From contig NZ_VUNS01000008.1 of the NCBI RefSeq assembly GCF_009695545.1, positions 62,001-126,000 on the forward strand: DNA of 64,000 nt, read 5' to 3'. The DNA is from Victivallis lenta (GTDB lineage Bacteria > Verrucomicrobiota > Lentisphaeria > Victivallales > Victivallaceae). Positions 11,484 to 34,618 of this stretch are shown piece after piece; the stretch's first letter is position 1, and every line of letters starts with the position of its first letter. A program made the translations under genes and the position numbers. Under the pieces are notes generated by a model. It was given only the letters and a program-made list of their open reading frames with translations. It did no database searches and was not told where the DNA came from.

Positions 11484-11558
11484 CGCAGAATGCTCCTTCC
11501 ATATCGCGCATAACCGGCCCGCACCGGCGCCGCCGCTTATTTTTCGCACAGTCAACAG

Positions 11559-11587: not shown

Positions 11588-11599
11588 ATTCCCCAAAAT

Positions 11600-11700: not shown

Positions 11701-11707
11701 ATCATTC

Positions 11708-12871: not shown

Positions 12872-13533
12872 TGAAAAAATTTACCCTGATCGAACTGCTC
12901 GTCGTAATTGCGATCATCGCGATTCTGGCCTCGATGCTGCTGCCTGCGCTGAACCAGGCCCGCGACCGGGCAAAGGCGATCAGCTGCAAGTCGAATCTGA
13001 AGCAAATCGGAACCACGATCCAGATGTACGCCGACGACAACGGCAACCGCCTGCCCGAAACAACGCAGGCGAGCCGGTCGTGGGAACACTGGCTGCTGAA
13101 AGGCGGCTATGTCCAGGAGGCCGACAATGTGAAGCTGCTGCGCTGCCCGAAGGACACGATCGTCCGGACCGCAAAGGAGTTTTCGCCGAAAAGCTATCGC
13201 TGCAACGGCTATCTCTGGTCCGACGCGGCCGCCTCCTGCCTGCGCGGAGCGGTCAGTCAGGTCCGCAACACGCCGTCGAAGCTGATTTCGCTCGCCTGCC
13301 AGCCGGATGCGCAGCTGCAGTGTTTCCGGAACAGCAAATCCATCGAATTCGGCTTCTCGATCGCCGCCGGCGACACCGACGGGCAGTGGACGCACGGAAC
13401 GTTCGGTACCTATCTCTTTCTGGGCGGCAACGTCGACAACATCGCGTTCCGGATCGATGACGACCTGAATCTCGGCGGCTCAAAGGTGCTCTGGACCCGC
13501 CACTGGAACGCGAAAGACCAGTCAACCCTCTGA
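12868..13533 (+). CDS. type II secretion-like pseudopilin (Lentisphaerae type, degenerate H-X9-DG)
   Basis: 221 residues. Prepilin-type N-terminus [20 protein letters not shown] with the conserved Glu at +5 of the mature helix, then [22 protein letters not shown], the conserved post-helix segment of these proteins. The C-terminal H-X9-DG element is present but reads H-X9-GG (Asp to Gly). The residue before the predicted cleavage point is Lys, not the usual Gly. Position: translationally coupled (ATGA) to the sialidase-like gene and 21 bp before a secreted GH51 enzyme. Probable role: a pseudopilus or pilus-like surface component; function unproven. Confidence 0.85.
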
Positions 13534-13554
13534 TCAAGGAGAAAGAACCGCTTT

Positions 13555-15615: not shown

Positions 15616-15638
15616 CACCGTACATCGTCAACCGGAGT

Positions 15639-16748
15639 TCAGGCCTGGCCGGGGGTGATCAGCAGCGTGGGGATTTCAATCTTCCGCGGCGGACTCTTCC
15701 GGTCGGACCGGCGCAGCTCAATCAGTTCGCAGATCCGGTCGGTCAGCCGGGCGTAGTCGACGCTGCTGGTAGTGATTTTCGGATGCCAGTACTGGAATTC
15801 CCGGAAATCCCCCTCGCCGGAGAGTTCCAGGTCGCGGCCCGGCTGCAGTCCGAATTCCATCGCGATGGAGGCCGCTCCCTGCGCGACGATATCGTTGTGG
15901 CAGATCACCGCTTCCGCCGCTTCGAGCGCGTCGCGGTTCTCCCGCAGCAACTCGCGGGTGAGCTCGAACTCCCGGAACATATTGAAGTCGTTCACGTTTT
16001 TCGCGGAGAGAATCCGCCCGGAACAGTCCGGGTGCGAAACCAGCGCCCGTTTGAAACCCTCCAGCTTCATTTCGGCATCGTAGCCGTAGAAATCCGGACG
16101 CAGCGCCTTGATGTTGCAGCTTGAAATGAACAGGAAACGGCGCTTTCCCATCGCATGAAAATGTTCAAACAGCCGCTCGATCTGGCAGTCGTTGCGCCAG
16201 AACAGAAAATCGAACTCGGCATCGATGCCGGAAAAATCGCCGTGACGGCGAACCTCCCCGGTGGAGTAAACCTCGATCATCGGCAGGTTGCGCCGGAACA
16301 GCGTATCGCACATCAGATTGTTCAGCTGCCCGAAATTGATCAGGCAATCCAGTTCGAGCAGCTGTGTGTTCCAGACGCTGCGGGAATCCTCGCCGTCGAT
16401 CCGCAGAATTTCCAGAGACATATTCAGCCGGGTATTGATCGCATCCTCCAGATCGCACAGGAAGCGCTGCACCAGCGGATTCGCCGCCGTGCGCAGCACC
16501 GGCTGGCAGCAGTCCTCCCCCATTACGAAACCGACCTTGCCGCGCCGCTGGGCGCTCCGGCGCATCAGGATGCCGCCGATGTGGGGCCGGTAATTCAGCT
16601 CTCGCATCGCCTCCTTCACGCGGAGCCGCGTCTCCGGCGAGAACGGAAACACCTCGGTCCCGTTGATGAAGCTCGACACCGTCGAAGTGGAGACCTTCGC
16701 CAATCTGGCGATGGTGTTGATGTTGATTTTGGCCGTTTCGGCTTCCAT
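15639..16748 (-). CDS. LacI family transcriptional regulator
   Basis: 369 residues from ATG 16748. The N-terminal helix-turn-helix NTIARLAKVSTSTVSSFINGT and hinge (LRVKEAMRELNYRPH) are classical LacI, followed by a periplasmic-binding-protein-like sensor domain and the C-terminal IEIPTLLITPG typical of the family. The open frame continues upstream to 17045, but those codons overlap its own promoter and have no Shine-Dalgarno. It lies downstream of, and on the same strand as, the GH2 gene, with its own promoter, so it probably represses the adjacent pseudopilin-GH2 operon and possibly itself (inference). Effector unknown. Confidence 0.9.
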   Translation of the reverse strand: MEAETAKININTIARLAKVSTSTVSSFINGTEVFPFSPETRLRVKEAMRELNYRPHIGGILMRRSAQRRGKVGFVMGEDCCQPVLRTAANPLVQRFLCDLEDAINTRLNMSLEILRIDGEDSRSVWNTQLLELDCLINFGQLNNLMCDTLFRRNLPMIEVYSTGEVRRHGDFSGIDAEFDFLFWRNDCQIERLFEHFHAMGKRRFLFISSCNIKALRPDFYGYDAEMKLEGFKRALVSHPDCSGRILSAKNVNDFNMFREFELTRELLRENRDALEAAEAVICHNDIVAQGAASIAMEFGLQPGRDLELSGEGDFREFQYWHPKITTSSVDYARLTDRICELIELRRSDRKSPPRKIEIPTLLITPGQA

Positions 16749-17016
16749 TCGCTTTATGATCTTTCCATAATTAACATATCTTTCACAACTGGCATCGCGT
16801 ACAAGTTTCATGAGTGAAACACCCCCCCGGGAAAGCTCCGCCTCGGGCGCTCCGTGCAGAATCATCGATTTCACTGCTGAGCGAACTGCTTCGCCGCCGG
16901 GCGTCTCCGACGGCCGGAAACTTCGCGCCGCCGGAACCCGCCCGGGCCGGACGGTCCTGAAAATGACGGGGCAAGCCGTCCGCCGTGATAAAAACCTGCG
17001 CACGGTGCTGACTGGT

Positions 17017-17045
17017 AAAATAGCGGCCCCGACGGAATTTGTCAA
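17017..17045 (-). promoter_or_regulatory. sigma70-like promoter of the lacI-type gene
   Basis: TTGACA (17040-17045), a 17-bp spacer and TATTTT (17017-17022), minus strand. This implies a ~260-nt GC-rich leader filling 16749-17010, in which I see no gene or clear terminator. The 330-bp gap between lacI and the GH2 gene is thus mostly promoter plus leader. Confidence 0.65.
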
Positions 17046-17078
17046 GTTTTCCGCCGAAACCGCACATGAAACGACGAC

Positions 17079-20000
17079 TTACTCCAGTATGACCTCCTTC
17101 AATTCGAATTTCATCGCGGGCCGGTGAATATCCGGCAGGCGCATGGAGCGGTAGTAGAGGAAAAGCTCGCCGCGCTGCCGGTCGAACGTGAAGCCGCCGG
17201 TGTTCTTCATCCGGGTTTCGATATCCAGCCGGTACTTGTGCCAGCGGCCGTCCCCCTTCAGCGCGACTTCGCCGCAGAGGTTCGCCTGCCAGTCGTCGCG
17301 GGGGAACAGGAACTGCACGGTTTCGTCCGTCGCGGATTTCGCGAGGAAAGTCAGATAGCGGTACGGCCCCGCAGCACCGGCCTTGTCGTAGACCAGCAGC
17401 GCCGCCGGAACCTCGCCGGCAGGCGAATCGGCGAATTCCACCGTCAGCGTGTTGTCCTTGCCGAAGTCGGCGGCCGTGACTTTCCCCGGAACCGTGCTGC
17501 CGACCTCCATCGTGCCGCCGGCATGGCGCAGCCGCTCCGGCGCAGTGATATTCAGCAGCCGTTCGCCGGATTTCTCGCCGGTCACCGCCACCAGTACCGG
17601 AACCGGAGTGCCCGTCGGCAGCCAGTCGATCTCACTGCCGCGCGTCTCGGCGGCGGAGAGAAAGTCGATGGAACGGATTTCAACGTCGGTTTTCGGATTC
17701 TCCCACTCGGCAACCCAGGTCGCAACCTCGTGGCCGCCGCCATTGGGGCGGACGATGCCGGTTTTCGCCTCCGGCAGGCGGCGGGGATTCCACCAGTCGC
17801 CGATGTTCACGCCGCCTTCAAGCGGATAATCGATGCTGGTTCCGTCGGCGTAACGGATGCGGTAAGCACCCGCCTTGCCCTGTCCGCCCCATGCGGCGGT
17901 GTGCAGAAAGAAGAGCCGTGAGAATTTTTGCCCCACCGGGATCTCCCGGATCGCGGCGGGAAAACGCGGGCGTTCGGAGCCGCGCAGCACCAGACAGCTT
18001 CTGCCGCCGTTGCGCTCGGGATCGAGAATATGGAACCGGATGCCGCCAGCCTCCTGAATACCGGTCGGCATGGTACGGAAATCCTGGCTGCCCTGATCGG
18101 TCCAGCCTCCTTTGCCGTCATTGGCGGTTTCGTCGCGGAAACCGGCATTCGCTTTGGTGGAGAGATCGAGAAACACCAGATTCTCCGGAACTGCGTGATA
18201 GCGGTTGGAAACGGCCTCCGCAAGCAACTGCACGTCGTCGCGACGGGGAACGGCTCCGGAGGCGTAGTCGAGCAGGTTGGCGAGATAAGTCGCGGCAGCG
18301 CTGTCCGAATCGCGGCCGGCGACCGCGTTCAATTGCGACAACAGCAGCAGCCCCTTGCCTTCGGCGGCCTCCGCGAGCGCCATGCCGACGTCCAGTTTCC
18401 CGAGCATCGGACCTTTGGCCGCAACCGCGTTCCGGGTGAAAGGCAGCAGGGAGTTGTTCACCGTATCGCCGTTCGCTGCGTTGTTCCACGTGTCGAAGTT
18501 ACGGTAGTCCAGCCCCCGGAACACCGGATGCTGCGGCAGCACCAGGTCGACGAAGGTGTTGGCGGCGGTGGAGAGCGCCAGCCCGCCGGGAAACGTGCTT
18601 TTGATATTTTTCTGCTCCATCACCAGCAGCGTTCCGCCGAGTTCGGAGAGAAAACGGTTCAACTCCGGGGAATCCGCGAGTTTGAGCTGCTGCTCTTCGA
18701 CAACCTCCGGCGGCACAATCAGCAGGCCGGGCTCCTGAAGTTCCGCGATGGAAGCGACTTTGCGGAATGTGATCCGGTGCGCATCGAGAATCCGCGCCAT
18801 CGCCGCCACGTTGCCGGGGGCACCGGTATCGAGCAGGAAAACCGGCTGCTTCGCCCGGACGGAGCGGGTCAGCACCGCCGGGTCCTGTACAAACGTATCG
18901 TAATAATTCCGGCCGACGGTCCGGCCGTTTTCCCGCAAGGTCAGGCGCATCTGGTAGTGGCCCGGTTCCAGCGCGGGGAGCGTCAGGACGACATCGGCGG
19001 AACTCCGCTGCTGTGCGGCGGGGCCGTCCATTTCAAAGGAGGCGGCCGGCGTGATTTTCCCGTCCTTTTCGGCAACCATTTCCACATCGCAGGTCAGATT
19101 GCGGCAGGCCCGGTTTCCGGCGTTATGCACGGTGAGAGTCCACGGCGTGGCGCGGCCGGAAAACAGGTTGCCCGGAAACAGCAGGTTGTCCGTATGCAGC
19201 GACGGAAGCAGCTGCTGATTCCAGAGCGTCGCCGCCGCCAGCCCCGGATTGCTGAACCACGGCGCGAAGCCGGTGAAATGCGGATTGAGCCGATAAAGTT
19301 CGAAGATCCGTCGTCCATACCGGGCCTGCGCCCAAAGCCAGAAATCGGAACCGACCGCCTTGAAGAGCGGAACGCAGCCGGTGAAGCCGATGCCGTTCGG
19401 ATTGGCCCAGTTGGTCGGGCGGGACGCATACTCCAGATAGTCCTGGAGAAAACCGGCCCGGAACTTCGGATCGGGATAGATACCCCACGAGAAACCGACG
19501 TTCTCCCACGAGACCAGCGGCCGCGAGAGCCGCTCCTTTTCGCCGTAGATGCGGAGCATTCCCTGCCGAAGCGTTTCCAACTCCTCCGGCAGCCGGGTCC
19601 ACGGCTGCGACAGCGCTGTGTAGGTGTGGATGTCGAGAAAATCGGTGTCGAGCCGCTCCTCGCCGTAGGAGGGCCAGCTCCCGGAGGCGGAAAAGGAGCC
19701 GACCGGACGCTTCTGCTTATCCAGCGCGCGGATCAGCGCGACCTGCCGGTCCATCTCGCGAACCACCTGCGGCAGGTTGCGGTGGATCACCTCGTTACCG
19801 AGCGACCACATTGTGACCGACGGGTGGTTGCCGGTCGCGTGGAAAAACTCCTCCAGTTCCTGCGAATTGACCCGGGCGAATGCGTCGGGCTCGATGGAGT
19901 TGGTGAAACACCAGCTCCATTCGTTGTAGATCATGATGCCGCACTCGTCGGCAATTTCCAGCGCCTTCGGCACGATCGGCATATGGGCGTTGCGCACCAT

Positions 20001-22422: not shown

Positions 22423-22540
22423 GAGCATTCCGCGAAAAAATTCGATTATTTACCGGCCTGCGCCATCTTATCCCGCCCGGCGGTTCTCATTGAAATACGC
22501 GGAGCCGGACCGCCGCACCGTCCCCAGCGGAACAGCGGCG

Positions 22541-23764
22541 TTACTTTTTGCCTGCAAACGCCTTGATGATGTTCAGGATGACCTGGACCGAACTCTCCAT
22601 CTCCTGTACCGATGCGAACTCGCATTCGCCGTGGAAGTTGTAACCGCCGGTCCCGAGATTCGGGCAGGGCAGTCCTTTGAAGGAGAGCGTCGCGCCGTCG
22701 GTGCCGCCGCGGATCGGCACGATGACCGGCTCGATCCCGGCGGAACGGACGGCGTCTTCCGCGATTTCAATCAGAAACGGATGCTGCCGGATGATCTCCT
22801 CCATATTGCGGTACTGGTCCTTGATGGTCAGCACGACGGTTCCGGCGCCGTATTTCGCGTTCAGCGTCTCGGCCGCCTCCCGCATACGCCGTTTGCGCGC
22901 CTCGAACGAAGCGGCTTCGTGGTCGCGCAGCAGATAGACCAGCCGGGCATTCCCGACGCTGCCGGAAGTGTGAACCAGGTGATAGAACCCCTGAAAGCGC
23001 TCCGTCTTCTCCGGAACCTCATCCTGCGGCAGCAGGGAATCAAGCTCGAACGCGACCTTCTGGGCGTTGATCATCACGTCTTTGGCCGAACCGGGATGGA
23101 CGGACCGCCCCCGGAGTTCGAAGGTCGCCGTCGCCGCGTTGAAGTTCTGGAACTCGATCTCCCCGGCGCCGCCGCCGTCGAGGGTATAGGCGTAATCGGC
23201 GCCGAAATCCGCAACGTCGAAATGGAGCGGCCCCTCGCCGATCTCCTCGTCCGGCGTAAAGCCGATGCAGAGCTTTCCGTGCGGGAGATCTCCGGCGGCA
23301 ACCCGTTCGACGGCGGTCAGAATCTCCGCGATGCCGGCCTTGTCGTCGGCGCCGAGAAGCGTGGTGCCGTCCGTGGTGATCAGCGTATGCCCGGTCAGGC
23401 GGTTCAGTTCCGGAAAAACGGCCGGATCAAGCGTGCGGCCGCTGTCACCGAGCGGAATGACGCCGCCCCGGTACTCGACCAGCTGCGGACGGACGTTGTC
23501 GCCGGGAGCATCGGCCGAGGTGTCCATATGCGCCACAAGCCCGAGGGCCGGAGCCTCCCCGCAGCCCGCCGAAGGCGGAATTTCGCCGAATACATAGGCG
23601 AATTCGGAGACGCGGACCCGCTCGACGCCGAGCTCCCGAAGCTCCTTCGCAAGATGCCGGGCGAACTCAAGCTGCCCCGGCGTGGAGGGATGCCGCCCGG
23701 TGGAATCGTTCGACTGCGTGTTGAACCGGACATATTCGAGCATTCGTTCCGAAACGGTTTTCAT
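22541..23764 (-). CDS. pepT: peptidase T (tripeptide aminopeptidase)
   Basis: 407 residues from ATG 23764, with GGAGGAGGT 7 nt upstream. M20-family zinc peptidase that removes N-terminal residues from tripeptides in the cytoplasm. Visible: GLVAHMDTSAD (metal-binding His79 and Asp81), TDGTTLLGADDKAGIAE, FTPDEEIGEG (catalytic Glu pair) and YTLDGGG. Length equals the typical 408-residue PepT. Monocistronic, divergent from the esterase gene. Confidence 0.94.
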   Translation of the reverse strand: MKTVSERMLEYVRFNTQSNDSTGRHPSTPGQLEFARHLAKELRELGVERVRVSEFAYVFGEIPPSAGCGEAPALGLVAHMDTSADAPGDNVRPQLVEYRGGVIPLGDSGRTLDPAVFPELNRLTGHTLITTDGTTLLGADDKAGIAEILTAVERVAAGDLPHGKLCIGFTPDEEIGEGPLHFDVADFGADYAYTLDGGGAGEIEFQNFNAATATFELRGRSVHPGSAKDVMINAQKVAFELDSLLPQDEVPEKTERFQGFYHLVHTSGSVGNARLVYLLRDHEAASFEARKRRMREAAETLNAKYGAGTVVLTIKDQYRNMEEIIRQHPFLIEIAEDAVRSAGIEPVIVPIRGGTDGATLSFKGLPCPNLGTGGYNFHGECEFASVQEMESSVQVILNIIKAFAGKK

Positions 23765-23795
23765 GATGGTACCTCCTCCATTCGTTTTTGCTTTT

Positions 23796-23821
23796 ACTAT
23801 ACCGCCGAAAACGCCGTTTTC
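23796..23821 (-). promoter_or_regulatory. pepT -10 element and upstream palindrome
   Basis: A -10 TATAGT (23796-23801) sits directly downstream of the perfect palindrome GAAAACgccGTTTTC (23807-23821). No good -35 is visible, so the palindrome, in the spacer position, may be an operator. Confidence 0.35.
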
Positions 23822-23887
23822 CACCGTCCGCAACCGCCCGGCCCGGTACAATCCGGTCCCATTTTTGCGGAATGTGAAAGAAAGCGG

Positions 23888-23915
23888 TTGAAAGCCGGAA
23901 TTCCGGACCTATATT
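23888..23915 (+). promoter_or_regulatory. promoter of the esterase gene with palindrome in spacer
   Basis: TTGAAA (23888-23893), a 16-bp spacer, TATATT (23910-23915). The spacer contains the 12-bp perfect palindrome CCGGAATTCCGG (23895-23906), a possible repressor site. The start codon follows 23 nt later. Confidence 0.65.
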
Positions 23916-23938
23916 CCCGTCAACTTCAGGAGGCACGC

Positions 23939-25234
23939 ATGAAATATTCCGTCACGGCGGCTGCCGCCGCTCTATTGTCCGCCGCAGTTTTCGCGGGCGC
24001 CGGAGCCGCGCTCAATCCGGCCCGGGTGGAGGTGACCGGCGTCACCGACCGGGACCCGCTGAGTTACCGGGCGGGAGAAACGATCATCTTTGAAATCCGA
24101 ACCGATTACGGCGGGCAGAAGGCGGAAGGCGACTACTTCCTGGCCTGGGAACGCTCCGGCGACGACGGCAGGACCGAGCGCGGCCGGGAGCGGGTCTCCG
24201 CCCGTCCTCTGGTGCTCCGCACCTCGCTGGACCGGCCCGGATTCGTCCGCATCACGGCGACGCTGCTGGACGCCGGCGGCAAGCCGCTGCCGACCCGCAA
24301 CAACTGGGGGCAGCCGATGAACTGCGGCTTCGAGGGCGGCGCGGGAGTCGAACCGGACAAGCTCGCCGGGCTGCCGGAGATTGCCGATTTCGACGCATTC
24401 TGGAGGAGGCAGAAAGCGCGCCTCGCCGCCGTTCCGCTGAAGTACCGGCTCGAACAGCAGACGAGTCCCCTGAAAAACGTGACCGTCTACGCGGCAACCG
24501 TCGACTGCGCCGGGCCGCGCCCGGTCACCGGTTACCTGACCGTACCCGCCGGGGCGCGGAAGCGGTCGCTGCCCGTCCGCGCGGTCTTTGCCGGATACGG
24601 TGTCGAAAAACAGAATCCGCCGCAGCAGGGACCGGAGGATTGCATCGTGTTTCACGTGAACGCGCACGGCTTCGAATTAAACCGCGACGCCGATTATTAT
24701 GCCGGATTCGCGCGGGCGATCGAATCCAACGGATTCTCTTACGCCTTCGACCCAAAGCAGAACGCCGATCCGGAACGCGCCTACTTCAACGGCATGGCGC
24801 TGCGAGTATTGCGTTCGCTTGAATTCCTGAAAGCGCTGCCGGAGTGGGACGGCGTCCGGCTGGAAGTCGCCGGCGGCAGCCAGGGAGGGCTCCAGGCGAT
24901 CTGGGGAGCGGGGCTCGATCCGGACGTCACCGGCTGCAAGGCGGATATTCCGTGGTGCTGCGATCTGGCGGGGGCGGCGAAACTCGGGCGGCTGAACGGC
25001 TGGCACCCGGAATACCGGCGTCCGCTCGATTACTACGATGCGGTCAACCACGCAAAGCGGATCAGGTGTCCGGTGGAGATCACCCGGGCAGGCCTGGGCG
25101 ACTACACCTGCGCGCCATCCGGCGTGGCAATCCTCTACAACAGCATCGAAAGTCCGAAAAAAATCACCTGGGTGCAGGGGTCGACCCACGGATACATGCC
25201 GAAAAATCCGCAACGCATCGTGAGAGAAAAATAA
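23939..25234 (+). CDS. acetyl xylan esterase-like (CE7/AXE1) alpha/beta hydrolase, secreted
   Basis: 431 residues from ATG 23939 (CAGGAGG upstream). Signal peptide MKYSVTAAAAALLSAAVFAGAGA, an N-terminal beta-sandwich (~25-125), then the CE7-like alpha/beta hydrolase: FDAFWRRQKARL, VTGYLTVP, nucleophile elbow GGSQGG, and a C-terminal His in GSTHGYMP. The RGQ-type motif of classic acetyl xylan esterases is not evident, so substrate specificity is uncertain; deacetylation of xylan or other acetylated sugars is the family expectation. The much longer in-frame ORF upstream overlaps pepT on the other strand and is spurious. Confidence 0.82.
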   Translation: MKYSVTAAAAALLSAAVFAGAGAALNPARVEVTGVTDRDPLSYRAGETIIFEIRTDYGGQKAEGDYFLAWERSGDDGRTERGRERVSARPLVLRTSLDRPGFVRITATLLDAGGKPLPTRNNWGQPMNCGFEGGAGVEPDKLAGLPEIADFDAFWRRQKARLAAVPLKYRLEQQTSPLKNVTVYAATVDCAGPRPVTGYLTVPAGARKRSLPVRAVFAGYGVEKQNPPQQGPEDCIVFHVNAHGFELNRDADYYAGFARAIESNGFSYAFDPKQNADPERAYFNGMALRVLRSLEFLKALPEWDGVRLEVAGGSQGGLQAIWGAGLDPDVTGCKADIPWCCDLAGAAKLGRLNGWHPEYRRPLDYYDAVNHAKRIRCPVEITRAGLGDYTCAPSGVAILYNSIESPKKITWVQGSTHGYMPKNPQRIVREK

Positions 25235-25284: not shown

Positions 25285-26133
25285 TTACAGCTGCCCCGGC
25301 GTCCGGCGCGCTTCCCGGACCGGCTCTCCGTTCAGGTCGATGATCCGGACATCGAGCGGAATCCGCCTGCCGGCCGATTCGAGCGCTTTTTCGACGATCG
25401 CGACGGTTCCGCCGCAGCAGGGCACCGTCATGCGGGCAACCGTAACCGAGCGGATGTCGTGGCGCCTGAAGATCTCCGCAAGCTTCGACACATACTCCTC
25501 CGTATCCTCATCGAGCTTCGGGCAGAAGATGACCAGAATCTTTCCATCCAGCAGCTCGCGGTGGAAGCCGCCCATCGCGCAGGGCACGCAATCCGCCGAC
25601 ACCAGCAGATCGGCTCCGTCGAAATACGGAGCCTCCGGATTCAGCAGCCGGAGCTGTACCGGCCACTGCCGCAGAGCCGACGGCGTCTCCTCCGGCGGAA
25701 CGGCGGCGGCCGGCTTCCGCGGCGTCAGCGCCTTCGCCAGAGTGCCGGGGCAGCCGCGCCCGAGCGTCTCTTCCGCCGCCTCTTCCGGAACCGGTATGCC
25801 CTTTTCCCGCAGATATTCGACCGCGATCCGGTGAAGCTCCTGTTCGCCGTGCGATCTCAGGTGGTGCAGATGCGCCCTGACCGTATTGGCTCCCTGCGCG
25901 GCAATCCGCTCCATGACCAGCCGTTCGTCATAGGGAGCGGCTTCGCGTTCAGTCATCGTGATCGCGCCTTGCGGACACTCCCCGAGACATGCGCCGAGAC
26001 CGTCGCAGAACAGATCGCTGACCAGCCGCGCCTTGCCGTCGATCATCCGGATCGCCCCCTCCGGGCAGTTCGGGATGCAGTTTCCGCAGCCGTTGCAGAG
26101 CTTTTCGTCGATTTCTATGATTTTCCGTTTCAT
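25285..26133 (-). CDS. 2x[4Fe-4S] ferredoxin-type protein with cysteine-containing C-terminal domain
   Basis: 282 residues from ATG 26133 (GGAGG 9 nt upstream; ATG 26139 is too close to it). N-terminus: CNGCGNCIPNCPEG, then a second cluster DGLGACLGECPQG, both near residues 12-60. The remaining ~200 residues have further cysteines (SADCVPCAMGG, TVPCCGG) and look like a partner domain found with this ferredoxin type in strict anaerobes. Role: low-potential electron transfer or redox sensing (inference). Convergent with the esterase gene, divergent from the kinase gene. Confidence 0.82.
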   Translation of the reverse strand: MKRKIIEIDEKLCNGCGNCIPNCPEGAIRMIDGKARLVSDLFCDGLGACLGECPQGAITMTEREAAPYDERLVMERIAAQGANTVRAHLHHLRSHGEQELHRIAVEYLREKGIPVPEEAAEETLGRGCPGTLAKALTPRKPAAAVPPEETPSALRQWPVQLRLLNPEAPYFDGADLLVSADCVPCAMGGFHRELLDGKILVIFCPKLDEDTEEYVSKLAEIFRRHDIRSVTVARMTVPCCGGTVAIVEKALESAGRRIPLDVRIIDLNGEPVREARRTPGQL

Positions 26134-26160
26134 TCGCATGGCCCTCCTTTTATTACGGTT

Positions 26161-26205
26161 TGTTATCATTCACTAACAATATACGCGGCTTTTCGGTAAA
26201 ATCAA
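26161..26205 (-). promoter_or_regulatory. ferredoxin gene promoter with adjacent inverted repeat
   Basis: TTGATT (26200-26205), a 16-bp spacer, TATATT (26178-26183), minus strand. Overlapping the start-site side is an inverted repeat TGTTA-n8-TAACA (26161-26178), placed where a repressor would block transcription. Confidence 0.6.
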
Positions 26206-26279: not shown

Positions 26280-28616
26280 ATGACTCATACGGACAACCAG
26301 CCGCCGGAACGGACGGAGCAGCAGGAGACCCGGACGCCCGTTTCCGAGCCGGAAGAGCGTACCATTCTCCTTCCCCGGACGGAAACGGGGGAACCCGGCG
26401 CAACGCCTCCCCCCGCAAAACCCGCCGCCCTCCCCGCTTCGCCGAAGACCCGTTTCTTCCAGCTGAAAAAACGGCGCGACGTCAACTCCGTCATGGAGGA
26501 GCTTCAGGATCACCCGGCCGAAGGGGAGGTCGATTTCTCCGGCGACGAGGAGAGCCTCGAACTGCTCGAGGAGAGCTACGACGTCGGAAAAAAATTCGCG
26601 GAGGGCGGCCAGGGCGAATTGTTTCACGGTTTCGACCGCCGGCTGAACCGGCTGGTCGCCCTGAAGTCGCTGCGCGGCGAACTTTCCGGAAACCAGCGGC
26701 TGCGACGGTTCTTCCTCTCCGAAGCGCGGGTCACCGCCCAGCTCGACCATCCGGCGATCGTGCCGATCTACACGCTGAATTCCGACCGGAAAGCGGGGCT
26801 GCACCTCGCGATGAAGCTGGTCAAGGGGCAGACCTTCAAGGCCTACCTCGAACAGATCTGCACGCACTACCGGCTCGACGGCGTAAACTCGTTCGACGAA
26901 AAGAAAGCCCTGCGCACCCGCCTCGACATCCTGCTCAAAGTCTGCGATGCGCTCGAATATGCGCACAGCCGCAACGTCATGCACTGCGACCTGAAGCCGT
27001 CGAACATCATGATCGGCGAATTCCGCGAAACCTACATCATGGACTGGGGCATCGCCCGGCGCATCCGGCATACGGAGAATGCGGCCGAAACACCTCCGCA
27101 GGAGGACGATTTCTGCGGAACACCGCAATACCTTGCGCCGGAGGTCATCCGGCACGAGCTGCGCGACCAGCGGGCGGACCTGTTCGCAATGGGCGCAATC
27201 CTGTTCGAAGCCGCCACTTTGAAAACCGCTTTCACCGGCAACTCCGTATCGGAGGTTCTGGCGAACATCGCCGACGGCCGGATGGAGCCGCTCGAACACC
27301 GTTTCCATGCGCCGATCGACGCGGACCTGAAGGCGATCATCCGCAAAGCGCTCGCCCCGGACCCGAAGCAGCGTTACCAGGAGATCAGGGAGTTTTCCGG
27401 CGATCTGAGGCGCTATCTGATGGGGCTGTCGGTGTCGGCCAGGCCGGACAATCCGGCCATGAAGCTGGTCCGCTGGTGCTACCTGCACCGCCGGCTGACG
27501 CTGGTCCTGATGCTCTGCGCGCTGCTGGCCGGAGTCGGCGCCCTCGCCTTCACGCTCTACCGGGAGTTCCGTTTCTCCGAAGAGCTCCGTTCGCGCGACT
27601 ACGCCCTCGGCGCGGCCTACTCCCGCAGCACCCATGCCGGACATCTGCTCGACGAACAGTTTTCGAAACTCGAACTGATGACCGCTTCGCTCGCCGCCGA
27701 TATCCGGTACCTGCTGAAGTACGATCCGCATCATGAAAAGGGGGAAGAACATGCGTTCCGCGCGGTTTCCGAGCTGCGCCGTCCCGGTGCGCCGGGACTG
27801 ATCGACTCCGTCTTTCACCACGGCCGGATCGACCCGGAAAGCATCGCCTACAATGTGACTCCGGATACGAACCCGGAAAGCGTCGAACGCCGCCTCGAGC
27901 CGATCTCGCGTTACATTCCCCGGCTGCTGCAGACGATTCTCGAAAGCCCGGTCAACGCCCGCGTGACGGATTCGAATCTGGAGGAACTCAAAACCGCCGC
28001 CTTCCGGGACGGCACGCCGATCATCCGGGTTCTCTTCGGCTTCCCGGACGGGCTGTACGCGGCTTATCCGGCCGGGAACGGCTTCCCGGAACGCTACGAT
28101 CCGCGCCGCCGCATCTGGTTTCCTCCGGCCGATGCCTGGAAGGAGAAACGGGCCGTCTGGTCGCGCCCCTATATCGACAGCGTTCCGCAGATCGGACTGG
28201 TCATCTCCTGTTCGGTTCCGCTGCGCATGCCGGACGGGCGCGGCAACGGGGTCTGCGCGGTGGATATCTCTCTGGACGAACTGATCGAGGAGCTGCACTC
28301 CTCCGGCAACGCGGGCCCGCACGTGCTCGAGAAGGCGATCATGGACGACGGCGGCAGAATCATCGTCTCCACCACCAGGGACTTCGCCGACATCGCCCGG
28401 TCGAATTACCGGAGCCCGGACGATGAGGTCGTCTTCAAGCAGCTCGAAAACCTCGCCGTTCTCGACGATATGAAAAAGCGGAAATTCGGAGTCGTCACCA
28501 TCCAGGAGCCCGACGGAAACGAAACGGTCTACACCTTCTGCCACATCCGCTCGGTCAACTGGTTCTATATCGAAAAGCTCGACATGCGCAATCTGCTGGC
28601 CTTTTTCCGCCGCTGA
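26280..28616 (+). CDS. membrane Ser/Thr protein kinase with C-terminal extracellular Cache-like sensor
   Basis: 778 residues. A Pro/Glu-rich N-terminal tail (1-90), then a bacterial Ser/Thr kinase domain (~100-385): Gly loop FAEGGQGELFHG, VALKSL (Lys129), catalytic HCDLKPSN (Asp237), metal-binding DWG (Asp255) and YLAPEV. The loop is HCD, not HRD, so this is a non-RD kinase; DWG for DFG is common in PVC bacteria. A membrane helix at ~407-427 is followed by ~350 extracytoplasmic residues resembling a double-Cache sensor (SRSTHAGHLLDEQFSKLE, YDPRRRIWFPPAD, WSRPYIDS). Likely phosphorylates cytoplasmic targets in response to an external ligand (inference). Monocistronic. Confidence 0.85.
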   Translation: MTHTDNQPPERTEQQETRTPVSEPEERTILLPRTETGEPGATPPPAKPAALPASPKTRFFQLKKRRDVNSVMEELQDHPAEGEVDFSGDEESLELLEESYDVGKKFAEGGQGELFHGFDRRLNRLVALKSLRGELSGNQRLRRFFLSEARVTAQLDHPAIVPIYTLNSDRKAGLHLAMKLVKGQTFKAYLEQICTHYRLDGVNSFDEKKALRTRLDILLKVCDALEYAHSRNVMHCDLKPSNIMIGEFRETYIMDWGIARRIRHTENAAETPPQEDDFCGTPQYLAPEVIRHELRDQRADLFAMGAILFEAATLKTAFTGNSVSEVLANIADGRMEPLEHRFHAPIDADLKAIIRKALAPDPKQRYQEIREFSGDLRRYLMGLSVSARPDNPAMKLVRWCYLHRRLTLVLMLCALLAGVGALAFTLYREFRFSEELRSRDYALGAAYSRSTHAGHLLDEQFSKLELMTASLAADIRYLLKYDPHHEKGEEHAFRAVSELRRPGAPGLIDSVFHHGRIDPESIAYNVTPDTNPESVERRLEPISRYIPRLLQTILESPVNARVTDSNLEELKTAAFRDGTPIIRVLFGFPDGLYAAYPAGNGFPERYDPRRRIWFPPADAWKEKRAVWSRPYIDSVPQIGLVISCSVPLRMPDGRGNGVCAVDISLDELIEELHSSGNAGPHVLEKAIMDDGGRIIVSTTRDFADIARSNYRSPDDEVVFKQLENLAVLDDMKKRKFGVVTIQEPDGNETVYTFCHIRSVNWFYIEKLDMRNLLAFFRR

Positions 28617-28626: not shown

Positions 28627-29520
28627 TCATACCATTGCCCGCAGCCCGAAACCGCCGATCAGCTCCGCTGCGTGACGCATCGCGTCATCGCCGGGGCTCC
28701 CGGCCCGCGGCATCGTGTCGGCGCGCCCGACCGCTTCGTATTTCGAACGCGCAAGCGAATGATAAGCCAGCAGCCGGACCGCCGTGACCGTGCCGATCCC
28801 GGCCAGGAACTCCGCGCTGCGCTTCAAAGTCTCATCCTCCATATTCAGGCCCGGTATGAGCGGAATGCGGATTTCGACCGGACAGCCGTTCCGGCCGAGC
28901 CGCAGCAGATTCGCTTTGATCCGCCCGTTGCCGCTGCCGGTCAGCCGCCGGTGCGCCTCCGAATCGGGATGCTTGAAGTCGAACAGGAACAGGTCGGCCA
29001 CCGGCAGCACGGTTTCGAACGCGCTCCACGGAACCTCCCCGCAGGTATCCACCGCCGTATGGATGCACTCCCGTTTCAGCAGCCTGAAGAGCTCCGCGCA
29101 GAAGGCGGCCTGAAGCAGCGGTTCGCCGCCCGAAACGGTCACGCCGCCGCCGGAGGTTTCGTAAAACGCCCGGTCCTCGAGCACGGCCGCCGCCGTCTCC
29201 TCCGGCGTCACGCGCTTTCCGTACAGCACAAGCGCATCGAACAGGCAAGCCCCGACGCACCTTCCGCACGCGGTGCAGCTCTCGCGGCCGAAGCGGTGTT
29301 TCCCGTCCGCAATCCGGTGGCAGGCGCAAACCCGGGCGCATTCGCCGCACAATGTGCATTTGTGGAACCGCACTCCGAGCTCCGGCGCGCGCCGGATGCT
29401 CTCCGGATTGTGGCACCAGACGCACCGGAGCGGACACCCTTTCAGGAACACGGTGCTCCGCACGCCCGGACCGTCGTGAACCGCAAAGCGTTTCAGGTCG
29501 CAGATGATTCCTTCCCGCAT
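28627..29520 (-). CDS. glycyl radical enzyme activase (PFL-activating enzyme type radical SAM)
   Basis: 297 residues from ATG 29520 (GGGAGGGGGAG upstream). Radical SAM cluster GCPLRCVWCHNPES (CxxxCxxC) near residue 30, then two extra ferredoxin-like motifs, CTLCGECARVCAC and CTACGRCVGACL, inserted as in activases of non-PFL glycyl radical enzymes; TVSGGEPLLQ follows. It abstracts a hydrogen from the glycine of the partner enzyme using SAM. It lies 10 bp downstream of the glycyl radical enzyme gene in one operon. Confidence 0.92.
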   Translation of the reverse strand: MREGIICDLKRFAVHDGPGVRSTVFLKGCPLRCVWCHNPESIRRAPELGVRFHKCTLCGECARVCACHRIADGKHRFGRESCTACGRCVGACLFDALVLYGKRVTPEETAAAVLEDRAFYETSGGGVTVSGGEPLLQAAFCAELFRLLKRECIHTAVDTCGEVPWSAFETVLPVADLFLFDFKHPDSEAHRRLTGSGNGRIKANLLRLGRNGCPVEIRIPLIPGLNMEDETLKRSAEFLAGIGTVTAVRLLAYHSLARSKYEAVGRADTMPRAGSPGDDAMRHAAELIGGFGLRAMV

Positions 29521-29530: not shown

Positions 29531-31741
29531 CTACTCGCTGATGCAGCGGGCCCGCTCGATGTATGCGTCCTGCTCTTTTCTGCAAAGATCGGTGAACAGC
29601 ACGTTCCAGCCGCAGACCCGGACCTGCAGTCCGCGATAGTTCTCCGGGTGCTCCTGAGCGGCGGCCAGCGTCTCCGCATCGAAGATGTTGAAGTGAATCG
29701 CCACGCCGTTCAACCGCATATAGGTCAGGAGCAGCGCACGCATCGCGGCGAGCCCGTCCTCGCCGCGAACCGTGGCCGGATGCATCATCACGTCGAGCGG
29801 ATAATCGCCCGGATACCAGGCCGGATCGATACGCGAAAGCGATTTCACCAGTGCGGTCACGCCGTTCGTATCCGCCCCCTGCACGGGAGAAAGATTCTTC
29901 GACATTTCGTCTCCGGAACGGCGTCCGTCCGGCGTTGCGCCGGTCTTCTCCCCGAGGCAGATGAACTGCCGGGCGGAGTGGCCCGACGCCTGGTAGAAGC
30001 CGCCGCGCGCGTTCGGACGCCGGTTGATCCTTTCCGATACGTGGCGCGCGAGCTCCGCCGCAAGGCGGTCCGCCGCCTCGATGCCGTTGCCGTACTTGTT
30101 CCCGTCGCGCAGAATCCGCAGCCGCAGCTTTTCATGGCCGTTCCAGTCGGCCTTCAGGATGTCGCGGAGTTCGGCAGGCGTCAGCTCCCGGCGCTCGTAG
30201 ACATAGCTGCGGATCACCGTCAGCGCATCGACCGCGGAGGCGAACCCGGCTTCGAGAATCGACGAAATATTGTAGACCGACCCGTCCGAGAATGCGTCGC
30301 GCGCCGTCTCGAGACTGTGCCGGATTGTCGCGGAGAACAGCAGCGCCGGGTTGATCTCGTGCAGCGTCCGCTCGAAATCATCCACGCACCGGATGTTGAA
30401 TTCGATGATCCGGTCGAGCTGCCGGAAGTAGGCGGCCAGAAAATCGTCGAAGGTCCGGAGCCGGTCGAGCGGGCCGGTCTTCTCCCCGAATGCGATTCCG
30501 GTCAGCGGGTCGATGCCGTCGTTCAGTACCAGTTCAATCGGTTTCAGCATATTCAGGTGCCCGACGCCGGTCGTATTGCCGAGTGCGCGCGGCACGAACT
30601 CGTAGCAGCCGCGGATGTCGCAGGTCCGCGCCTCCTCCGCGCTGAAGCCGCAGGCCGCCATCGCGCGGGCGATGCCGGGTTCGCAGACGAACACGATGCT
30701 GTTGTGCCCGCGCCGAATCATGTCGAACGCACGGTCCAGAAACTCCGGCGGCGTATTCGGCGCGGTTTTGATCTGGATTTTCGGCGTATGCAGTCCGAGC
30801 CGGTCGTACTCCTCGAGAATCAGGTGCGAAAGTTCGCTGATCTCCGTGGAGCCGTCGGCCTTCGTTCCGCCGAGATAGAACGGGTGGCCCCAGTAGTTGT
30901 CGATCGACGCCCACTGCATCAGGAAGTAGCCGATGAATTCGCGGATCTGCGCTTCGGTGAACCGCTTTTCCGCCAGGTCCCGCCGGAAATACGGCAGGAG
31001 CATGCGGTCGAGGTTGCCGAGCGACCGGACCTGATACCGGTCGATATGTTCGCCGAACATGAAAAAGAGATAGATCAGCGACAGAACCTCGAACGTGTTG
31101 CGCGGTGCGCCGGAAATCAGCGCGCCGAGGCACTCCGCCACGGCAGCGACCCGTTCACTGCCGTCCGCGTGCTCAAGCGCATACTTCCGGAACCGGCCGA
31201 GCATCTCGAGAACCGCGCGGCAGGCGATTTCCATGCCGTCGAAACGGGCGGCCGCCTCGGGCGTCAGCGTGCCGCGCTCCGCGTGGCGCCGGCGATATCG
31301 CCGCACCCGGTCGAGCAGCCCCGGAAAGCCGAGCTCATAGACGGCCTCCCAATCCGGCACGGAGTGGTCGAAGTCCTTCCAGATCGCCGTAGCGCCGGTA
31401 CGTTCGCAGAGCTTCCGCAGCTCCGTCAGCTCAGGCGAAGCCCGGTCCGCCTCTTCGCTCCAGCCATAAATCAGCGCGGTCAGCGGCCGGTCGTCCCGGT
31501 CCCAGCAGCCGAAGCCGACGAACCAGTCGTGCGGGTTCACATCGATCCGGACGTTCCGGGTCACATACTCGAAGGCCCGCGCTTTCACAACCGGACGCGG
31601 TTCCCCGGCCAGCTCCCGCGCGAGCAGTCCGATGTCTCTTCTGATCGTCTCATTGTCGAGACCGGTCGCCGGATCGAAAGACGGATTCCGGAATTTGCCG
31701 AGCAGATACGGCAGATCCTGTTCGAAGGTGCGATATGTCAT
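29531..31741 (-). CDS. glycyl radical enzyme of unknown substrate (PFL-like family)
   Basis: 736 residues. C-terminal glycyl radical motif RVCGWNVLF with Gly711, and active-site loop RGCYEF with Cys379 and Glu381. The G-C-x-E pattern is that of eliminases/dehydratases (glycerol, propanediol, hydroxyproline, choline types), not the adjacent Cys-Cys of pyruvate formate-lyase, so formate acetyltransferase activity is unlikely. The radical motif has Cys and Trp at positions usually Ser/Ala and Tyr. No microcompartment signal is obvious at the N-terminus and no shell genes are nearby. Operon with its activase; divergent AraC regulator. Strict anaerobic enzyme; substrate unknown. Confidence 0.88.
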   Translation of the reverse strand: MTYRTFEQDLPYLLGKFRNPSFDPATGLDNETIRRDIGLLARELAGEPRPVVKARAFEYVTRNVRIDVNPHDWFVGFGCWDRDDRPLTALIYGWSEEADRASPELTELRKLCERTGATAIWKDFDHSVPDWEAVYELGFPGLLDRVRRYRRRHAERGTLTPEAAARFDGMEIACRAVLEMLGRFRKYALEHADGSERVAAVAECLGALISGAPRNTFEVLSLIYLFFMFGEHIDRYQVRSLGNLDRMLLPYFRRDLAEKRFTEAQIREFIGYFLMQWASIDNYWGHPFYLGGTKADGSTEISELSHLILEEYDRLGLHTPKIQIKTAPNTPPEFLDRAFDMIRRGHNSIVFVCEPGIARAMAACGFSAEEARTCDIRGCYEFVPRALGNTTGVGHLNMLKPIELVLNDGIDPLTGIAFGEKTGPLDRLRTFDDFLAAYFRQLDRIIEFNIRCVDDFERTLHEINPALLFSATIRHSLETARDAFSDGSVYNISSILEAGFASAVDALTVIRSYVYERRELTPAELRDILKADWNGHEKLRLRILRDGNKYGNGIEAADRLAAELARHVSERINRRPNARGGFYQASGHSARQFICLGEKTGATPDGRRSGDEMSKNLSPVQGADTNGVTALVKSLSRIDPAWYPGDYPLDVMMHPATVRGEDGLAAMRALLLTYMRLNGVAIHFNIFDAETLAAAQEHPENYRGLQVRVCGWNVLFTDLCRKEQDAYIERARCISE

Positions 31742-31764
31742 GGCAGCATTCTCCTTTTTTATTT

Positions 31765-31793
31765 ATTATACACGCGCCGCACCGGAAACAGAA
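31765..31793 (-). promoter_or_regulatory. promoter of the glycyl radical enzyme operon
   Basis: Consensus -10 TATAAT (31765-31770) with a poor -35 (TTCTGT, 31788-31793) at 17 bp, suggesting an activated promoter; the divergent AraC-type gene is the obvious activator. Confidence 0.5.
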
Positions 31794-31814
31794 TGGCGGA
31801 AAACGGAATAAGTT

Positions 31815-31842
31815 TTGCATTTTGTGATTTTCATGCTATTTT
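31815..31842 (+). promoter_or_regulatory. promoter of the AraC-type gene next to the glycyl radical operon
   Basis: TTGCAT (31815-31820), a 16-bp spacer, TATTTT (31837-31842). Confidence 0.55.
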
Positions 31843-31863
31843 ATCCAAAGCGGGAGGCATGTG

Positions 31864-32682
31864 ATGGCGGAGTTGAGGAACCGGGATGAAATTTACGGGC
31901 TGAGCAACCGAATCAGCCTGACGCTGACCCATTTCGCCAAAGGGGCATACCCGGTCTTTTCGGCGACGCCGCAGGCGCTTTCCGTCAACCGGATGCTTGG
32001 CATTTTTGAGAACCCGAACGGAGCGGAGAACTTCATCCGCTGCGGGGACGACAAGCTTCCGCTGATTCCGGGAACCGTCTACTTCATTCCGGCCTACCTG
32101 CCCGCGCAGGTCCGGCTCGACGACCGGACGCTCTTCGTCTCGATCCAGTTCAGCCTCGAACTCCATTCCGGCGTGGAACTGTTTTCGATGTACAAGCACA
32201 TCCGCAGCGAATACCGGCCGGAGCTGGTCGCCCGGCTGGTCGAAATTTTCGACTCCGACCGGCAGCTGCTGCTTGCAGTCGAACTGCGCAAGCACGTGTT
32301 CGCATTCGTATATGACATGCTCGACGGAAGTGCGGAGACACCGCCCGACCTCGCGGCCCGCTTTGCGCCGTACGCAGCCGTACTCGACCATATCGCGGCC
32401 CGCTGCACGGCCGGAATGCGCGTCGCGGAGCTGGCGAAAATCGCCCGGATGCCGCGCGAAACCTTCACGCGAAGATTCACCGCCGACACCGGAATCACGC
32501 CGAAACGTTTTCTCGACCGGCAACTGCTGCGCCGCGCCTCGGAGCTGCTGCGCCGTCCGCATACCACAGCACGCGAAGTCGCCGCCGAGCTCGAATTCAG
32601 CAGTGAATTCGTCTTTTCACGTTTCTTCAGGAAACAGAGCGGACTCTCTCCCGGCCTCTACCGGCGGCAGTACCGGCCCTGA
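31864..32682 (+). CDS. AraC family transcriptional regulator
   Basis: 272 residues from ATG 31864; GGGAGG lies 6 nt upstream, and the preceding in-frame GTG (31861) is too close to it. The N-terminal half is a cupin-like sensing domain (IPGTVYFIPAYLPAQVRL); the C-terminal ~100 residues are the AraC double HTH (RVAELAKIARMPRETFTRRFTADTG and AAELEFSSEFVFSRFFRKQSG). Divergent from the glycyl radical enzyme operon with 122 bp between, so it most likely controls it in response to the enzyme's substrate (inference). Confidence 0.9.
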   Translation: MAELRNRDEIYGLSNRISLTLTHFAKGAYPVFSATPQALSVNRMLGIFENPNGAENFIRCGDDKLPLIPGTVYFIPAYLPAQVRLDDRTLFVSIQFSLELHSGVELFSMYKHIRSEYRPELVARLVEIFDSDRQLLLAVELRKHVFAFVYDMLDGSAETPPDLAARFAPYAAVLDHIAARCTAGMRVAELAKIARMPRETFTRRFTADTGITPKRFLDRQLLRRASELLRRPHTTAREVAAELEFSSEFVFSRFFRKQSGLSPGLYRRQYRP

Positions 32683-32725: not shown

Positions 32726-33982
32726 TCACACCTCTTCCACCGCATCGCGGCAGTGGGCGGTTTTCAGGATGTCGAGCCCCCATTCGTATTCGCTGCGCGT
32801 CTTGAAGTTGAACATGATCGAAAGCAGGTTCCCGCCCGGTTCGATTTTGCGGCACTCAAGCAGGAACGGATGCTCCCAGTCGTTCACCCGGAACAGTTCG
32901 GCCCGGCAGTCCGGCCCGAGCAGGACGTTCTCCATGAACACCTTGTCGGGGTGCTGGCTCATGCGCCTGCCGAGCATCCGCGTCCGGAACTCCTCCTCTT
33001 CGTCCGGCGAAACCTGACAGACGGCACTGCTCGCCGCAATGCAGCGATCCGGTTCGACCAGCCGGATCGCGCCGTCCTTCTGCTCCTCGCGCCGGAAACC
33101 ACCCGGAATCAGAATCTCCCAGTTGCCGATCGGGGCCAGCAGCGGAAATTTGCGGAAACCGACCGATTCGAACCGGGTGTCCTCCGGAATTTCCTCCGGC
33201 ACAACAGGCGTGCGCCCGACGATTCCGCACAGTTCGAGGTAAAGCTTCCGGGGAAACGGCAGCAGCGGGTCCTCTTTCGCCACCTTTTCCAGACTCCGGC
33301 AAATCTCTTTGCAGAGCGGGTCGCCGGCATGGAAAGCACACCGGGTCCAGGCGTCGCTCATAGCCAGGTTGCGCAGATAAACCGTGTCCTTCTCCCGGTT
33401 CGGCCAGATGAAGAAATCCTGCAGAAACGCCATCGGCTCCCGGTCGAACAGGGCCTTGACGGAACAGGGAAACAAACCGGTCGGACAATACCAGTGATTC
33501 TCCGGCGCATTGGCGAGCATGTACCAATCGTCAGGCCACGCGAAGCAGATCGCCTCGCTCCGCCGGCCGCCTTCGATCTCAATGGTCGTCAGGAGTTCCT
33601 CCAGAAAGGGCAGGAACACCGCGCGCCGGAGAGCTTCGAAATCGCCTCTCTCGCAGTAAGGGTCGCCGGGCTCATAAACCGCAGCCAGGCGGGCCTCGCC
33701 GGCCAGTGCATTGCAGAAGTCGGCCGCCGCCGCATGGAAGCCGGGCCCGGCGATCGAGCTGTCGGCACTTCCCTTCAGCATCTGCGCCTCCTCGTCCGGA
33801 TGGAAAACCAGATCGCCCTCCGGACAGAAATGAACGGCGATGTCCTCCTCGCGCCGCTTGATGCCGCAGCCGCGCTGCGCGGCCAGGGCCTCCATGCGGG
33901 AGACGATTTTCGGGAGATTGAACTTGCCTGCGAAACACAGCAGCCGGCGCGGAGTCATGGAAACACAAAAACCGACATTCAT
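32726..33982 (-). CDS. hypothetical protein, 418 aa
   Basis: Not recognised. ATG 33982 has GGAGG 6 nt upstream and a plausible promoter, and codon use is GC3-rich like its neighbours, so the gene is real. No signal peptide or membrane helix; acidic and Trp/Cys-rich (FAWPDDWYMLANAPENHWYC, DFFIWPN). The C-terminal half is beta-rich with GNWEILIPGGF and ends in LLSIMFNFKTRSEYEWG. Convergent with the AraC-type gene and probably monocistronic. A cytoplasmic protein is likely; function unknown. Confidence 0.7.
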   Translation of the reverse strand: MNVGFCVSMTPRRLLCFAGKFNLPKIVSRMEALAAQRGCGIKRREEDIAVHFCPEGDLVFHPDEEAQMLKGSADSSIAGPGFHAAAADFCNALAGEARLAAVYEPGDPYCERGDFEALRRAVFLPFLEELLTTIEIEGGRRSEAICFAWPDDWYMLANAPENHWYCPTGLFPCSVKALFDREPMAFLQDFFIWPNREKDTVYLRNLAMSDAWTRCAFHAGDPLCKEICRSLEKVAKEDPLLPFPRKLYLELCGIVGRTPVVPEEIPEDTRFESVGFRKFPLLAPIGNWEILIPGGFRREEQKDGAIRLVEPDRCIAASSAVCQVSPDEEEEFRTRMLGRRMSQHPDKVFMENVLLGPDCRAELFRVNDWEHPFLLECRKIEPGGNLLSIMFNFKTRSEYEWGLDILKTAHCRDAVEEV

Positions 33983-34273: not shown

Positions 34274-34512
34274 GCTCACGGGAAAGGACGGCCTGCCGGT
34301 CCTCCGACGCGCTGCACACTATGGAGGACATCCTTCCCCTGCGGGTACTCCTGTCTGCGCTCATCCTTTTCACTCGCTTCGCCCGTGGGAAAGGGCGGCT
34401 TGCCGGTCCTCCGACGCGCTGCGCGCTATGGAGGACATCCTTCCCCTGCGGGTACTCCTGTCTGCGCTCATCCTTTTCACTCGCTTCGCTCGCGGAAAAG
34501 GATGGCTTGCCA
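34274..34512. repeat. 107-bp tandem repeat, two full copies plus partial copies
   Basis: Copy 1 is 34274-34380 and copy 2 is 34381-34487, nearly identical; the first ~25 bp of a third copy follow, and a shorter degenerate piece lies at 34202-34220. The unit carries ATCCTTTTC (34470-34478 in copy 2), which can pair with GAAAAGGAT (34495-34503). All six frames through it are open by composition, but none looks like a gene. The 558 bp between the hypothetical gene and tRNA-Val hold only this and the promoter at 34021. Confidence 0.85.
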
Positions 34513-34544
34513 TCCGTAGCTCGACTTCGTCGAGCGAAGGATGG
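34500..34544. repeat. competing short hairpins abutting the 3' end of tRNA-Val
   Basis: GGATGG (34500-34505) and CCATCC (34510-34515) form a 6-bp stem with loop cttg. The same CCATCC can instead pair with GGATGG at 34539-34544, enclosing a second stem GCTCGA/TCGAGC (34519-34535). The last three bases (34542-34544) are the encoded CCA of the tRNA, so the second structure overlaps its 3' end. Confidence 0.7.
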
Positions 34545-34618
34545 TGGGCAATGACGGACTCGAACCGCCGACATTCACGGTGTAAACGTGACGCTCTAAC
34601 CAACTGAGCTAATTGCCC
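34542..34618 (-). tRNA. tRNA-Val (anticodon TAC)
   Basis: Full cloverleaf on the minus strand: acceptor GGGCAAT/ATTGCCC, D arm with AGCTCAGTTGGTTAGAGC, anticodon stem TCACG/CGTGA with loop TTTACAC (anticodon TAC, GUA codons), TTCGAGT T-loop, encoded CCA. Confidence 0.96.

Follow-up and report, generated by a model that had tools for sequence, protein, structure and literature searches.

An intact glycyl radical enzyme of an uncharacterised clade in Victivallis lenta

The stretch of DNA analysed in this study (64,000 nucleotides from Victivallis lenta, in the following the window) contains a gene for a glycyl radical enzyme (GRE). The locus is a two-gene unit, the GRE gene followed by the gene of its activase, beside a divergently oriented gene for an AraC-family regulator (table 1). 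The GRE carries a PFL-like domain (PF02901, 293.7 bits, E = 4.2e-87, cut-off 24.3) and a Gly_radical domain (PF01228, 72.7 bits, E = 4.2e-20, cut-off 22.2). A previous sequence-only reading of this DNA named Cys379 and Glu381 in a GCYE loop and Gly711 within RVCGWNVLF, and the 736-aa translation shows these residues to be correct (Gly378-Cys379-Tyr380-Glu381 and Gly711). The same reading described the divergent AraC gene and an activase with two ferredoxin domains; the former is where it was expected, and the activase contains the radical-SAM motif CPLRCVWC and the ferredoxin motifs CTLCGECARVC and CTACGRCVGAC and scores above the cut-off of TIGR02494 (312.8 vs. 174.35 bits). A structure prediction, which the reading had proposed as a check, was run in AlphaFold2 with a 28-row alignment (A1) as input and returned a whole GRE fold (mean pLDDT 91.7, pTM 0.90).

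Table 1. Features of the GRE locus and its surroundings, numbered from the first nucleotide of the window.
Feature	Position	Strand	Remarks
Glycyl radical enzyme (GRE), 736 aa; Cys379, Glu381, Gly711, His126	29531..31741	-	ATG at 31741, stop at 29531
Cys379-Tyr380-Glu381 codons (thiyl-radical Cys loop)	30599..30607	-	Position computed from translation; alignment
Gly711 codon (expected glycyl radical site)	29609..29611	-	Position computed from translation; alignment
GRE-activating radical SAM protein, two ferredoxin motifs, starts at MREG	28627..29520	-	10-bp gap after GRE stop codon
AraC-family regulator (HTH_18), divergent from GRE	31861..32682	+	ORF list, Pfam
Intergenic region, 119 bp, between divergent GRE and AraC genes	31742..31860	.	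Weak promoter-like hexamers only
ORF with AXE1-type esterase domain (residues 632-905)	22490-25234	+	Pfam; ORF end 3.4 kb from activase

Several other features surround the unit. A Ser/Thr protein kinase with a Cache-type sensor region (26280-28616, plus strand) is convergent with the GRE-activase unit, and a 294-aa protein (25285-26169, minus strand) has 4Fe-4S ferredoxin motifs at its N-terminus, the rest of its length being unassigned. On the other side, just past the AraC gene, lies a 418-aa ORF (32726-33982, minus strand) that has no match in Pfam or NCBIfam. A tandem repeat with a 107-bp unit in 2.2 copies (34279-34511) adjoins a tRNA-Val gene (34542-34618, minus strand).

The window GRE is in none of the characterised groups that were tested, and it is not filed as a diol dehydratase, HypD, PflD or PFL. 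Its best NCBIfam score, 312.7 bits, was obtained with the general model TIGR01774 and is below the cut-off of that model (678.2). The models of HypD (NF043068, 295.5 bits, cut-off 1100), PflD (PRK09983, 229.4 bits, cut-off 1109), CutC (198.9 bits, cut-off 1050) and pyruvate formate-lyase (TIGR01255, 77.8 bits, cut-off 994.2) were not reached, and neither were the equivalog cut-offs of HpfG (218 bits) and HpsG (193 bits) or the cut-offs of indoleacetate decarboxylase (165 bits) and hydroxyphenylacetate decarboxylase (149 bits), all of which are at least 1000. The identity to all listed solved GREs is roughly even at 18-25%. The best PDB match by sequence is the B12-independent glycerol dehydratase (GD, E = 2.2e-69 and 4.5e-122), HypD is second by profile, and plasmid-encoded relatives among the matches listed reach up to 28.4% identity, with annotated HypD proteins at about 28%. 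The best fold matches of the predicted model in Foldseek and VIA-align are all GREs: Foldseek places HypD, propanediol dehydratase (PD) and GD first (TMq up to 0.90), and VIA-align places Archaeoglobus fulgidus PFL2 at the top (Z = 42.3) and CutC, PD and HypD at about 40, where rows less than 1 apart in Z count as tied. A total of 40 GRE rows fall at Z 30-42 in VIA-align and the next fold, the class III RNR, is found at 21.

Close relatives of the window GRE were identified by a scan of genome contigs, which returned 31 loci encoding proteins with 47-64% identity in the best segment. Most of these loci carry the labels Lentisphaerae, Lentisphaeria or Victivallales; one each is labelled Oligosphaera (the named strain Oligosphaera ethanolica DSM 24202), Victivallis sp., Phycisphaerae and Verrucomicrobia, and the rest "bacterium". 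Some match at E <= 1e-40 was present in 65 out of 288 genomes of the phylum, a count that includes other GREs. The relatives were divided into group A (orthologues of the window GRE), group B (about 38-46% identical to the window GRE, with one paralogue in the same genome, L011/L092, at 44%), group C (about 30-36%, with another own-genome paralogue, L003/L093) and group D (about 690 aa, about 31-34%). The genomes themselves contain many GREs: 13 distinct GRE genes were counted in the own genome (G000), three of them in tandem on contig C22, and G205 and G224 each gave 17 GRE profile matches.

Groups A-D form a separate and strongly supported clade. In a search of 24 genomes with profile A1, 58 matches scored at least 419 bits and the next GRE scored 325.5. 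A 66-row maximum-likelihood tree, calculated by a quick method with SH-aLRT support and no bootstrap and with long branches among the outsiders, placed all 52 A-D rows on a single branch (100% SH-aLRT, length 0.62). GD, PD, HypD, HplG, A. fulgidus PFL2 and nine other GREs of the own genome lie outside this branch, and GD and PD pair together (99%) apart from the clade. Clustering within an isofunctional group such as GD or HypD, the outcome by which the sequence-only reading would have been overturned, is thus not found by NCBIfam scores, structure matches or the tree. Since the GRE frame is kept over its full length in the related loci, the gene does not represent a chance ORF. It is virtually certain that it encodes an intact GRE that belongs to an uncharacterised clade. 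The absence of microcompartment genes, previously noted for the neighbourhood, extends to the whole genome: no PF00936 shell gene was detected in any of the 18 clade-carrying genomes, the own genome included, and the controls Escherichia coli and Synechococcus were positive.

The residues conserved in group A were determined from an alignment of 32 rows (three incomplete rows included, L046 left out). All 32 rows keep Gln237, Val238, Arg239, Lys321, Gln323, Lys325, Cys379, Tyr380, Glu381 and Thr391, and among the rows that reach the respective positions His126 is present in 31 out of 31, Gly711 and Trp712 in 30 out of 30, and Arg or Lys at position 591 in 30 out of 31. The GCYE and RVCGWN motifs are common to the clade. 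Arg239, Lys321 and Tyr380 are also present in the displayed rows of groups B, C and D and absent from the eight other own-genome GREs displayed, and Arg/Lys591 is not kept in the displayed B, C and D rows except for L046. A study on HypD (PMC7077986) gives Cys-x-Glu as the motif of GRE eliminases. By this motif, invariant in group A, the window protein is filed as a GRE of the probable eliminase type, in agreement with the active site proposed earlier. The same study lists Asp278, Ser334, Asp339, Phe340, Tyr450 and Thr645 as surrounding the substrate of HypD, with Thr645 serving the substrate carboxylate (PMC7077986). In the alignment, Asp278 corresponds to Gln237, Asp339 to Gly285, Tyr450 to His395 and Thr645 to Arg591 of the window GRE, and Phe340 and Ser334 fall on gaps (HypD numbering is the chain number minus 20, by which eight known HypD residues are placed correctly). 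In the profile alignment with GD, Asp447 corresponds to Gly392, His281 to Gln237 and Ser282 to Val238; we take these three to be functional positions of GD, and Asp447 to be a diol-dehydratase residue. To our knowledge, Lys321 does not correspond to a known pocket position. The presence of Arg or Lys at what sequence alignment marks as the carboxylate position (591), together with the further invariant basic residues Arg239 and Lys321, suggests an anionic substrate.

The gene neighbourhoods of 34 group-A loci (the 31 loci, L087, L064 and the window itself; contig ends truncate several of them, and counts were made by eye) were compared, with neighbouring genes called as ORFs under a codon-usage filter. 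L044 and L045 stayed in the gene-order listing but were omitted from the protein set for annotation, and the Pfam annotation covers 36 proteins selected from these neighbourhoods and from the window. The activase is within the same gene run in 24 out of 34 loci, 19 out of 34 have an AraC homologue ahead of the GRE or of the operon it belongs to, and no third gene is constant across the 34 loci. Two gene families, both beyond the view of the sequence-only reading, do recur near GREs of the clade. Among the 36 strongest of all matches to SASA-type esterases in 24 genomes (E up to 2.6e-16), eight have a clade GRE within 5 kb where 0.23 are expected (Poisson p = 1.6e-10, a value that is too favourable because the matches represent about six genus-level events, G080 and G261 being one genus and G183 being counted twice). 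For the same 36, the corresponding count is zero with 54 other GREs, which were drawn from the weaker profile A1 matches, the remainder of those being left out. The esterase genes are found in the operons activase-GRE-SASA (L101, group A), SASA-GDSL-GRE(D)-activase-...-GRE(A) (L037, L038 and L091) and SASA-GRE(D)-activase-CMD (L096). By eye, several of the short SASA neighbours have an N-terminus without a signal peptide, and the N-terminus of the longer SASA proteins in L078 and L079 is hydrophobic.

The second family comprises PcaC-like decarboxylases (CMD). Of the 10 strongest among 29 rows in the single-domain form, three adjoin clade GREs (0.07 expected), with G022 and G086 belonging to one genus, and further CMD neighbours occur in L026, L035 and L038. 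These neighbours score 65-80 bits on TIGR02425 (PcaC), below its cut-off of 155.7, and match the gamma-carboxymuconolactone decarboxylase 2af7 in the PDB (E = 5e-31). Neither a SASA nor a CMD gene adjoins the GRE in the window's own locus, where the nearest esterase is the AXE1-type protein 3.4 kb past the activase on the opposite strand. Further neighbours of clade GREs are SSF symporters (L017, L019, L021 and L077, in the first three adjoining the activase), MFS, GDSL, BD-FAE and AXE1 proteins, metallophosphatases and DUF4838; two long neighbours without a Pfam match have no match in the PDB either. A single run in L038 (2886-12196) contains SASA, GDSL, a group-D GRE, the activase, a group-A GRE, CMD and a second group-A GRE, and L077 (6346-15776) has three clade GREs in one same-strand run, the third separated from the first two by a BD-FAE-type hydrolase, together with an SSF symporter. 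In L092 (G000:C7:183001-201145; positions 10233-17935), the group-B paralogue and its activase are followed 1.06 kb on, on the same strand, by GH32, a PfkB kinase and a sugar transporter.

Other associations were considered and not retained. A link to GH78 rhamnosidases was attractive at first because GH78-like genes occur near group-B and group-C GREs; of 205 matches in 24 genomes, only one among those listed, from which the distances were taken by eye, has a clade GRE within 5 kb (G076:C78), which is at chance level given that about 0.006 are expected per match (0.23/36). For AXE1, two among the matches listed lie within 5 kb of clade GREs by eye (the window, and G212 beside the activase), which is near chance. 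A link to SSF transporters is suggestive and not significant, with two among the matches listed within 5 kb (G086:C9 and G282:C170; 24 genomes, by eye). Rhamnulose-type aldolase-like genes, recognised by eye in L031 and L040, are at least 6-7 kb away.

In GRE eliminases, a glycyl radical is passed to a cysteine, which abstracts a hydrogen atom from the substrate, and elimination of a vicinal group follows. In the window GRE, the activase would generate the radical on Gly711, from where it would be passed to Cys379; Cys379 would then take a hydrogen atom from the substrate, Glu381 and His126 would help a vicinal group (water or another leaving group) to leave, and the hydrogen atom would return, leaving the radical available for another turnover. 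The substrate would be converted in the cytoplasm, with no microcompartment involved. In related genomes, a small SGNH/SASA esterase or a lactonase may hydrolyse an ester (or lactone) before the GRE step, and loci that also have CMD may form a beta-oxo acid as the product. That the window GRE is a free-standing Cys-x-Glu eliminase acting in the cytoplasm on a small anionic polyhydroxylated compound, in a pathway for which relatives also employ a small esterase or lactonase (SGNH/SASA) and, in some cases, a PcaC-like decarboxylase, has in our estimation about an even chance of being correct; because SASA and CMD genes are not adjacent in the window's own locus, the pathway part is carried over from the relatives. 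A wider proposal for the clade is possible and distinctly more doubtful: groups A-D might perform an undescribed GRE reaction, a radical elimination on a polyhydroxylated acid released or reopened by a dedicated cytoplasmic SGNH/SASA esterase, with the product decarboxylated by a PcaC-like enzyme and with some genomes carrying two to three clade GREs per operon, as in L038.

The alternatives differ mainly in the substrate. A free-standing diol dehydratase for 1,2-propanediol or glycerol, placed last in a breakdown pathway of methylpentoses or glycerol, is brought to mind by GD as the best PDB sequence match, by PD and GD among the top fold matches and by the many GH78-type genes in clade genomes. 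It is nevertheless unlikely, as the identity is only 22-25%, the three GD residues Asp447, His281 and Ser282 are replaced, GD and PD group with each other away from the clade, GH78 genes are near clade GREs at about chance frequency and shell genes are missing. The hydroxyproline (or related hydroxy-amino-acid) dehydratase reaction of HypD is a highly improbable function: the first place of HypD in Foldseek (TMq 0.90) and its second place by profile stand against the replacement or gapping of six out of six checked substrate-site residues, a score far below the NF043068 cut-off and an identity of about 28% to the plasmid-borne annotated HypD proteins. The sequence-only reading had suggested a free-standing dehydratase or lyase of a sugar, polyol or amino-acid pathway; its free-standing eliminase is retained here, a methylpentose or diol substrate is not favoured (GH78 at chance level, Asp447 missing) and hydroxyproline is disfavoured by the HypD residues.

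A lyase that opens the ring of a cyclic sugar derivative, comparable to PflD/YbiW acting on 1,5-anhydrohexitol 6-phosphates, would agree with the sugar genes (GH32, PfkB and the sugar transporter) near the own-genome group-B paralogue and with the SSF symporter beside the activase in three loci, and the basic residues could hold a phosphate. We consider it improbable, given that PflD/YbiW is no closer than other GREs in identity (22-25%) or in its PRK09983 score and that no kinase was recognised adjoining the group-A GREs. Hardly any weight can be given to a PFL-type C-C lyase (2-oxoacid formate-lyase), for which only the PFL-like family name speaks: the window GRE has Cys-Tyr-Glu where PFL has Cys-Cys, a difference that had been pointed out earlier, the TIGR01255 score is very low, few GREs are as distant as PFL (18% identity, Z 30-35), and the own genome has a separate and much stronger PFL-like match (L001, 687 bits).

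A published study names GREs of unassigned function as a recognised gap in the anaerobic metabolism of the gut (PMC11574389). Starting from a single gene, the present analysis arrives at an entire clade that is sharply bounded and has a sequence fingerprint of its own, and at genomes that are rich in GREs; the esterases and decarboxylases that recur as neighbours reduce the search for the substrate from any diol to a short list. The open-licence literature searched yielded no paper that treats the A-D clade or describes SASA or CMD genes near a GRE. A new radical cleavage, if found, would add a reaction to the GRE superfamily, and if the esterase-GRE-decarboxylase reading of groups A-D is true, the Lentisphaeria would have a branch of glycan or plant-ester breakdown that is anaerobic and radical-based.

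Compared with known systems, the window GRE shares the fold, the Cys-x-Glu loop, the catalytic histidine (His126, His164 in GD) and the Gly loop with GD of Clostridium butyricum (1r8w), and the same four features are alike in PD of Roseburia (5i2a); it differs from both by the low identity, the replaced GD residues and the lack of microcompartments in the 18 clade genomes. HypD is likewise similar in fold, Cys-x-Glu motif and catalytic histidine and differs in the six substrate-site residues. The 1,5-anhydrohexitol-6-phosphate enzymes PflD/YbiW (8id0, 8id7 and 8yjo), whose entry titles name sugar-related ligands, share the GRE fold and form no common group with the window GRE. The isethionate sulfite-lyase IslA (7kq3) is about 21% identical and has its basic positions at Arg189 and Arg678, compared with Arg239, Lys321 and Arg591 in the window GRE. 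In IslA, the anionic substrate is held by Arg residues of the barrel, and the barrel strands are described as shifting between GREs (PMC8473560), which limits the placing of the basic residues of the window GRE by alignment. Finally, the neighbours of the clade GREs, and not the GREs themselves, recall PcaC and PcaD of the beta-ketoadipate pathway: the CMD neighbours resemble the PcaC model TIGR02425 and sit near an esterase, whereas they score below the PcaC cut-off, the setting is anaerobic and the partner enzyme is a GRE.
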